From Bacteroidota bacterium (GTDB taxonomy: Bacteria; Bacteroidota; Bacteroidia; UKL13-3), in assembly GCA_947464275.1 (NCBI GenBank), contig CANHVU010000026.1:1-48201 (forward strand): a stretch of DNA of 48,201 nt. Reading direction: 5' to 3'. Under the pieces are notes generated by a model. It was given only the letters and a program-made list of their open reading frames with translations. It searched no databases and was not told where the DNA came from. Position 1 is the stretch's first letter. Every line of letters begins with the position of its first letter. Shown here piece after piece: positions 14,455 through 30,707 of the stretch. A program made the translations under genes and the position numbers.

Positions 14455-14543
14455 GGTGAGATGGGTGAGCGGCTGAAACCACCGGTTTGCTAAACCGACA
14501 TACGCGTCAAAGTGTATCGAGAGTTCGAATCTCTCTCTCACCG
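14455..14543 (+). tRNA. tRNA-Ser (anticodon GCT)
   Basis: Acceptor GGTGAGA (14455-14461) pairs with TCTCACC (14536-14542), with discriminator G. The anticodon stem is CCGGT/ACCGA around loop TTGCTAA, anticodon GCT, reading AGC/AGU. A long variable arm (CATACGCGTCAAAGTGTATC) marks a type II tRNA. The T-arm has GAGAG-TTCGAAT-CTCTC. CCA is not encoded. Transcribed from the promoter just upstream, probably together with tRNA-Pro. Confidence 0.95.
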
Positions 14544-14606
14544 CACAAATTTTTAAAGGGCGAGTAGCAATGCTTAGTTCAAAAATTTAGCACTTTTGAA
14601 AAATTT

Positions 14607-14652
14607 GCAAACGGGGTGTAGCGTATCCCGATAGCTATCGGGATGGTATCGC
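14607..14652 (+). pseudogene. 5' fragment of tRNA-Pro, interrupted by a palindrome in the D-loop
   Basis: GCAAACGGGGTGTAGCGTA (14607-14625) is identical to the start of the intact tRNA-Pro and its 5-base flank (14677-14695). The intact gene then has GCC and TGGTATCGC (14696-14707). The fragment instead has the 18-base palindrome TCCCGATAGCTATCGGGA (14626-14643) and then the same TGGTATCGC (14644-14652). Similarity stops there, so acceptor 3' strand, anticodon and T-arms are missing. It cannot make a tRNA. Confidence 0.85.
14625..14644. repeat. Inserted perfect palindrome ATCCCGATAGCTATCGGGAT
   Basis: A 20-base perfect palindrome inside the tRNA-Pro fragment. Related copies are at 1578-1597 and 30690-30707 and, more loosely, 30629-30644. 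The tRNA comparison defines an 18-base insert that replaces three bases. Confidence 0.8.
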
Positions 14653-14681
14653 ATCATTCAGAAACTATAAAGTAACGCAAA

Positions 14682-14755
14682 CGGGGTGTAGCGTAGCCTG
14701 GTATCGCGCCACATTTGGGATGTGGAGGTCGTAGGTTCGAATCCTGCCACCCCGA
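14682..14755 (+). tRNA. tRNA-Pro (anticodon TGG)
   Basis: Acceptor CGGGGTG (14682-14688) pairs with CACCCCG (14748-14754), with discriminator A. The anticodon stem CCACA/TGTGG surrounds loop TTTGGGA, anticodon TGG, reading CCA and wobble Pro codons. The T-arm is GTAGG-TTCGAAT-CCTGC. The CCA end is not encoded. It lies 139 bases after tRNA-Ser, with a broken copy of its own 5' part between the two. A terminator hairpin follows 14 bases downstream. Confidence 0.95.
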
Positions 14756-14769
14756 CAAAAACAGGCTTA

Positions 14770-14801
14770 AACCTCTGTCTTAATAAACAGAGGTTTTTTT
14801 A
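14770..14801 (+). terminator. Rho-independent terminator of the tRNA unit
   Basis: AACCTCTGT-CTTAATAA-ACAGAGGTT, a 9-base-pair stem, followed by TTTTTTA. It follows tRNA-Pro directly. Confidence 0.85.
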
Positions 14802-30563: not shown

Positions 30564-30628
30564 ACTGTGGGCAAAGGTAAGCCAATTTTAATGGAAAAAA
30601 ACAGGAGTTTTGTTATCCACTTGCTAAT

Positions 30629-30644
30629 CCCGAAAGCTTTCGGG
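30629..30644. repeat. Perfect palindrome CCCGAAAGCTTTCGGG
   Basis: A 16-base perfect palindrome. It opens the repeat-rich part of the gene-poor gap 30564-30888, which otherwise holds only direct words (CGTTGTTCGATAAACGG) and AT-rich sequence before the next gene. Confidence 0.7.
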
Positions 30645-30689
30645 AAAGGGGCAATTGATTCGTTGTTCGATAAACGGTCACCGAAGGCA

Positions 30690-30707
30690 GGCCGATAGCT
30701 ATCGGCC
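30690..30707. repeat. Perfect palindrome GGCCGATAGCTATCGGCC
   Basis: An 18-base perfect palindrome sharing the CCGATAGCTATCGG core with the palindrome inserted into the tRNA-Pro fragment at 14625-14644. No gene is seen in the surrounding 325-base gap. Confidence 0.75.

Follow-up and report, generated by a model that had tools for sequence, protein, structure and literature searches.

Fragments of tRNA genes usually stem from the integration of mobile elements, and in the archaeal cases given in an excerpt of PMC9897764 the copies lie 9–23 kb apart. Some families of REP palindromes are found inside other palindromes and some inside reading frames, as described in part of PMC3733652, while the palindromic elements of Rickettsia are 100–150 bp long (PMC3767692, in excerpt). 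Perfect hairpins can also be written into RNA genes by a mutational route, template switching (PMC8794818, in excerpt). At the locus described here a tRNA fragment and a short palindrome occur together. We consider the fragment to be, with a probability of roughly 55%, the scar of a recurrent local event that combines a REP-like hairpin with partial tandem duplication of a tRNA gene, and for which no function is needed.

The locus lies in the window, which is the whole 48,201-nucleotide stretch analysed, contig C26 of a 3.4-Mb genome in 68 contigs (G000); its features are collected in Table 1. The original prediction held that a fragment and the intact tRNA-Pro gene share 19 and then 9 bases around an exact 18-base palindrome, where the gene has GCC, and this was confirmed base by base. 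Positions 14607–14625 (GCAAACGGGGTGTAGCGTA) are identical to 14677–14695 (19/19), TCCCGATAGCTATCGGGA is a perfect palindrome of 18 nt (20 nt counting the flanking A and T) standing opposite GCC at 14696–14698 (nt 15–17 of the tRNA), and the TGGTATCGC that follows matches at 9/9 positions (14644–14652 and 14699–14707, nt 18–26). Since the intact gene begins at 14682 according to both ARAGORN and Rfam, the 19 shared bases divide into 5 of upstream flank and 14 that are tRNA nt 1–14; the bases replaced by the palindrome belong to the D-loop. Comparison with same-genus relatives places the original upstream flank beside the fragment and a new flank beside the intact gene. The first 67 nt after tRNA-Ser correspond to the whole spacer of the same-genus genome G003, so the net insert is 70 bp. 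No source for the new 29-nt spacer was found in the window, where its longest match is 10 nt against 10–14 nt in shuffled versions.

Table 1. Features in and around the tRNA-Pro locus, and further members of the palindrome family in the window.
Feature	Position	Strand	Basis
tRNA-Ser(GCT), upstream neighbour	14455..14544	+	ARAGORN and Rfam RF00005
Original tRNA-Ser/tRNA-Pro spacer, still attached to the fragment	14545..14611	+	63/67 identity to the entire spacer of G003 (same genus)
tRNA-Pro 5′ fragment: nt 1–14, palindrome, nt 18–26	14612..14652	+	
Palindrome TCCCGATAGCTATCGGGA replacing D-loop GCC; present in 9 exact copies genome-wide	14626..14643	.	
New 29-nt spacer ahead of the intact gene	14653..14681	+	
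Intact tRNA-Pro(TGG)	14682..14756	+	ARAGORN, Rfam RF00005
Terminator-like hairpin and T-run downstream of tRNA-Pro	14769..14800	+	Consensus match only
Second palindrome-family member TCCCGAAAGCTTTCGGGA, intergenic	30628..30645	.	
Third family member GGCCGATAGCTATCGGCC, same 14-nt core, intergenic	30690..30707	.	

The palindrome is a member of a dispersed family, in line with the original interpretation, which proposed looking for it in other tRNA genes. The window's genome holds 9 exact copies of the 18-mer, against none of the reversed control pattern, and 34 copies at ≤3 mismatches, against 1 for the control. Among the 25 variant copies 16 remain perfectly palindromic, the change in one arm being matched in the other, for example TCCCGAAAGCTTTCGGGA, which shares one intergenic stretch of the window with GGCCGATAGCTATCGGCC. 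The exact palindrome is present in 27/64 genomes of the family, with up to 44 copies per genome. Chance does not account for it: 100 shuffles of the window gave 0 matches at ≤3 mismatches, compared with 2 in the window itself. A role as a terminator was also rejected, as no T-run follows the palindrome and the terminator scan gave only the hairpin after tRNA-Pro. The Y1 transposase (PF01797), a candidate mover of the palindrome, has 10 matches in the window's genome and none in 5 of the 27 palindrome-bearing genomes, and over the 64 genomes its number correlates with that of the palindrome (Spearman 0.33, p 0.009).

Most copies in the window's genome (8/9) lie away from any known RNA gene, which counts against our preferred explanation; no Rfam-recognised RNA lies within 1.5 kb of the eight copies other than that at tRNA-Pro. 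In G029 one copy is part of the stretch matched as RNase P RNA, towards the 5′ end of that RNA (L153, G029:C1:1801401), and in G016 one is read in frame, as PDSYR, in the glycine–tRNA ligase gene (L215, position 622), the only copy for which the reading frame was considered. At 102 non-tRNA sites from 10 genomes (a set made up without tRNA sites, G059, three G029 arrays and copies with <20 nt of flank) no tRNA duplication accompanies the palindrome. Flanks at these sites are not complementary, with a mean complementarity run of 2.45 compared with 2.47 for re-paired flanks, so the general rule that the palindrome always caps a hairpin fails. Direct repeats of ≥3 nt abut the palindrome at 25 of the 102 sites, where 3.5 would be expected and 500 permutations gave a maximum of 11; several of them belong to short tandem repeats, AAATCTC for instance. 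These repeats fit target duplications and a loss of 3–4 nt, as at tRNAs, equally well. In a collection of viral contigs, inspection by eye of two loci (L284, L301) shows a sequence resembling tRNA-Met whose D-loop holds the palindrome; ARAGORN does not recognise a tRNA at either.

Comparison of the tRNA-Ser/tRNA-Pro interval among relatives, the check proposed with the original prediction, found the intact pair without the fragment in 8 same-genus genomes (G001–G006, G008, G009); a ninth, which is 65% complete, gave no match. The same arrangement is present at tRNA-Pro in three other genera, in G017 (TCCCGATGGTAATCGGGA), G019 (TCCCGGATAGTTATTGGGA) and G074 (exact palindrome), at the same place in the D-loop in all and with a degenerate palindrome in two of the three. 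Carriers of the tRNA-Pro fragment number 4 of the 46 genomes with a scanned tRNA-Pro (64 in the family); this includes G017, which the exact-word scan missed by one mismatch and which was recognised by reading the sequence. An exact-pattern scan of 84,980 species genomes, with a pattern that cannot detect G074, returned three matches: G017 and G019 again, and a chance match in Calditrichaeota (L058) where there is no tRNA. Conservation of the fragment in distant relatives with some other sequence in place of the palindrome, which would have implied a function, was not encountered. In the relatives that carry the fragment the palindrome is recognisably the same, and every one of them has a fragment-free relative in its own genus (G028 for G017; G029 for G019; G022, G031 and G076 for G074).

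The event is not confined to tRNA-Pro. The palindrome was collected with its flanks in 155 exact copies from 11 genomes, 154 of them testable; all copies were taken from G029, G012, G006, G000, G019, G017, G074 and G059, and a part from G063 (25/26, one repeat being common to two contig ends), G027 (16/25) and G016 (7/10). For 50/154 palindromes a palindrome-free version of both 11-nt flanks exists at the same locus, and in 46 cases it lies within an intact tRNA gene; random positions have an undamaged version nearby in 4/609 cases, and this contrast with 46/154 again excludes chance. The 46 palindromes represent 24 distinct sites, with a near match (L219) making 25, and affect tRNA-Pro, Asn, Thr, Leu, Arg, Met, Ala, Gly, Cys and Trp. 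Between 3 and 6 bases are lost at the 24 sites, and the gap from palindrome to gene is 25–95 nt at most of the 25. A strong polarity is seen: damaged copies lie upstream of the intact gene at 12/12 D-arm sites and downstream of it at 9/9 T-arm sites, while both variable-loop sites are downstream and the anticodon arm has one site on each side. D-arm fragments begin at nt 1 of the gene and T-arm fragments reach its 3′ end; some damaged copies extend over much or almost all of the gene (L206, L208). The distribution is uneven between genomes, with 0 of 12 copies at a tRNA in G006 and 1 of 22 in G012. A fragment of tRNA-Ala in G063 (L108) has a second, different hairpin, TCCCGACAGGCATGTCGGGA, in place of the anticodon arm.

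Scanning tRNA genes for partial copies of themselves, with no palindrome required, revealed other hairpins in the same role. Partial self-copies were found for 5/28 tRNA genes of G029, with tRNA-Leu(TAG) recognised separately, and for 3/29 in the window's genome, namely tRNA-Pro, a weak match at tRNA-Arg, and tRNA-Met (L261, contig C13, 86482–86553), which has a T-arm copy downstream with TTCCGAAAGCTTTCGGAA in the T-loop and a repeated terminator-like hairpin. G001, in the same genus, has three downstream T-arm copies of tRNA-Pro capped by TCACGCGAGGCGTGA, and G005 and G008 have similar downstream copies with imperfect hairpins. In total 178 tRNA genes gave 131 partial matches, and a hairpin adjoins 114/131 of these compared with 218/4800 random places, a proportion inflated by arrays that are counted many times and by the inclusion of terminators. 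The polarity holds at 36 of 40 classifiable sites and is broken at 4 (p = 2e-7), most of these loci having been fetched because they bear the palindrome; in a less biased subset, consisting of all tRNA genes of G000 and G029 and the tRNA-Pro and tRNA-Ser genes of other genomes, 18/20 follow it. The counts of 131 matches and 40 sites include several weak rows: tRNA-Arg of G000 (nt 53–64, at 314 nt), a 5′ match of tRNA-Thr(GGT) in G029 at 414 nt that is probably a fragment of the neighbouring tRNA-Thr(TGT), matches of tRNA-Asn nt 63–75 in G029 that adjoin terminator-like hairpins, and tRNA-Pro of G005 and G008, for which the hairpin test failed or chose another hairpin. The upstream copy of the 5′ part of tRNA-Arg(CCT) in G029 (L240) has no palindrome and counts against our preferred explanation. 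As a separate observation, that copy terminates with CTATCCG, which as the reverse complement of the copy's CGGATAG makes a snap-back hairpin.

Some of these fragments occur as tandem arrays. In G029, a single-contig genome, 11 units of 80 bp lie upstream of tRNA-Asn and 7 units of 99 bp upstream of tRNA-Leu(TAG), while 7 units of 65 bp lie downstream of tRNA-Thr(GGT) and 13 units of 63 bp downstream of tRNA-Leu(TAA), 12 of the 13 carrying TCCCGATAACTATCGGGA. The tRNA-Asn fragment that forms an array in G029 is present as one unit in G019, where the palindrome is the same and the spacer matches at 23/34 positions, and unit number ranges from 1 to 11 between species. Degenerate palindromes, a fragment common to two species and a single-contig genome with the same pattern make misassembly an unlikely source.

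The anatomy of the locus, the empty sites in relatives, the recurrence, the polarity and the arrays are matters of direct observation, and the recurring hairpin-capped tRNA ends point to a repeated way of damaging and rebuilding essential tRNA genes. In the mechanism proposed here, a polymerase would enter the gene from outside, be diverted at an arm into hairpin sequence, return, and restart from the edge of the gene. At tRNA-Pro, three bases of the D-loop would have given way to the REP-like palindrome in the copy still joined to the old upstream flank, and a partial tandem duplication, of the gene's front end, would account for the whole gene that follows after the short new spacer. Events of this kind recur at many tRNA genes of the family, a hairpin taking the place of 3–6 arm bases; a D-arm hairpin would leave a 5′-end fragment upstream and a T-arm hairpin a 3′-end fragment downstream, with some scars expanding into arrays. 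Hairpin and duplication probably arose in one step, by replication template switching at the arm. This is somewhat favoured over duplication first because the hairpin caps are varied and hairpin-free copies are rare. Hairpins made by template switching are built from local sequence, unlike one fixed sequence at many loci. Insertion alone can presumably also occur, as the palindrome is found without tRNA duplication at the 102 non-tRNA sites, in RNase P RNA and in the glycyl-tRNA synthetase gene. This counts against the favoured explanation, as do the 4 sites that break the polarity, the long damaged copies and the want of a source in the window for the new spacer. The idea that duplication or repair rebuilt the intact gene stands in part: the layout of the flanks fits a damaged original front end and a partial duplication restoring the gene. 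The history of a single locus that went with this idea does not, since fragment and palindrome recur at tRNA-Pro in three other genera, twice in degenerate form, and at other tRNA genes.

The rival with most in its favour, which is nonetheless doubtful, invokes two unconnected steps, a tandem duplication and a later arrival of the palindrome in the redundant copy, followed by decay of the remainder. The geometry of the fragment, with the outer flank on the damaged end, the hairpin in the nearest arm and the intact gene inside, is expected from one event and also from two steps, the latter if just the order that cannot revert survives. With two steps, the polarity would come from a survival filter: in one order the copies would recombine through their long shared inner parts to a single good gene and the scar would vanish, while in the other the same exchange would be lethal and the scar would persist. 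That palindromes exist where nothing is duplicated is in keeping with this, as is the range of the copies from a 5′ half to nearly complete, the long ones fitting duplication first; moreover, an outer terminator-like hairpin is repeated at tRNA-Met in the window's genome and at tRNA-Cys in G027, as in an ordinary tandem duplication. However, hairpin-free partial copies are few (17/131, in a set gathered mostly through the palindrome), and tRNA-linked palindromes are far commoner than chance strikes on rare duplicates would give. The fragment could instead be what remains of an element that integrated into the tRNA gene, brought a replacement end and later lost everything but the spacer, and one partial with one complete copy is indeed the usual outcome of integration (excerpt of PMC9897764), the 19-bp direct repeat of tRNA sequence (19/19) resembling an attachment site. 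We regard this as very unlikely: just 29 nt without an ORF separate fragment and gene, compared with 9–23 kb in the archaeal cases of that excerpt, gaps are 25–95 nt at most of the 25 sites, no integrase remnant is present at the window's locus, and the palindrome is left unexplained.

Less credible still is a single ancestral tRNA-Pro fragment lost from most lineages by deletion between the repeats. Such a deletion would yield exactly the empty site, the fragment occupies the same place in four genera, and by our own reading a short ACGC near the end of the spacer is common to G000, G017 and G019. Each carrier, however, has a same-genus relative without the fragment, and in a tree of the neighbouring ATPase (one gene, 35 genomes, G074 not among them) no fewer than 3 changes are required to place the three carriers, G000 grouping with the fragment-free G004 and G003. 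In addition, the G074 fragment has CGGTATC like its own gene, in contrast to TGGTATC in the other fragments, and the event recurs at other tRNA genes. A function for the fragment is improbable, if less so than the two preceding histories: it might act as a cis decoy in the precursor RNA, its copy of the 5′ acceptor strand competing for the tRNA's 3′ strand and thereby tuning folding or RNase P processing. The predicted fold of 14607–14760 gives the 3′ acceptor strand of the gene a pairing of 0.94 to the fragment but of 0.04 to its own 5′ strand, and reaches −53.0 kcal/mol against −44.7 with the cloverleaf enforced (z −2.5); also, G019 and G029 have homologous tRNA-Asn fragments in which the palindrome is the same in every base while the spacers agree at only 23/34 positions. 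Given the tRNA by itself, this program prefers a wrong fold (−31.7) to the cloverleaf (−25.9), so the predicted competition between strands serves only as a lead. Absence of the fragment from the 8 same-genus genomes argues against an essential role, and the variation from 1 to 11 units between species also speaks against a decoy. On the favoured reading, a scar of hairpin and partial duplication, no function would be required. A bolder version, which we hold only speculatively, is that tiny hairpin elements of Bacteroidota target the arm loops of tRNAs and copy the outer end of the gene in one concerted reaction of insertion with target repair, the hairpin-capped ends then being amplified in arrays, possibly because transcripts of these ends compete when the neighbouring tRNA folds or is processed.

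Although tRNA genes are essential, those of this family bear, time and again, copies of their ends that are capped by hairpins, with marked polarity and growth into arrays. If the pattern is general, it would offer a natural assay for hairpin-provoked duplication and repair. It would also account for annotated tRNA fragments other than integration scars, and may reveal how very short palindromes spread. The polarity rule is simple and predictive, and can be tested on finished Bacteroidota genomes. Titles and the openings of abstracts, in a literature whose coverage mostly leaves out subscription journals, contained no description of hairpin-capped tRNA ends; in a literature text search the string GATAGCTATC occurs in 6 published papers. 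Within the same partial coverage, the rule that side follows arm (D-arm upstream, T-arm downstream) was not found described before, its known parts being the REP-like palindrome and partial tRNA duplication.

The tyrT/rtT repeats of E. coli contain a tRNA 3′ end and lie downstream of a tRNA gene, and in this they resemble the T-arm fragments. Their units are longer and are not known to have a T-loop palindrome, a description that sets them apart, and Rfam scans of the window and the palindrome loci gave no rtT match. REP sequences and the RAYT-linked GTAG/CGTC repeats are, like the palindrome of the window, short, dispersed and mostly intergenic (PMC3733652, in part), and the window's palindrome is likewise a short palindrome repeated in its genome. 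No constant GTAG or CGTC tag stands beside it and, by eye, the listed flanks share no common tetranucleotide; unlike REP/RAYT systems as that part portrays them, it is 18 nt long, sits in tRNA arms with partial gene duplication, and has no clear tie to Y1. Rickettsia palindromic elements can sit in frame within genes (parts of PMC3767692 and PMC3733652), as one copy does here in the glycyl-tRNA synthetase gene; at 100–150 bp (PMC3767692, in part) they differ from the window's palindrome, which is 18 bp long, has unrelated flanks and is tied to tRNA gene ends. The small hairpin elements in part of PMC2800124 also spread between genes, and sometimes into them, with no known function, but they are mitochondrial and are described there without polar duplication of tRNA ends. 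Integration scars, as represented in the excerpt of PMC9897764, share with this locus one partial and one complete tRNA copy with a direct repeat; here, by contrast, the copies have no element between them, loop bases are exchanged for a hairpin, both ends of genes are affected, and the fragments can grow into tandem arrays.
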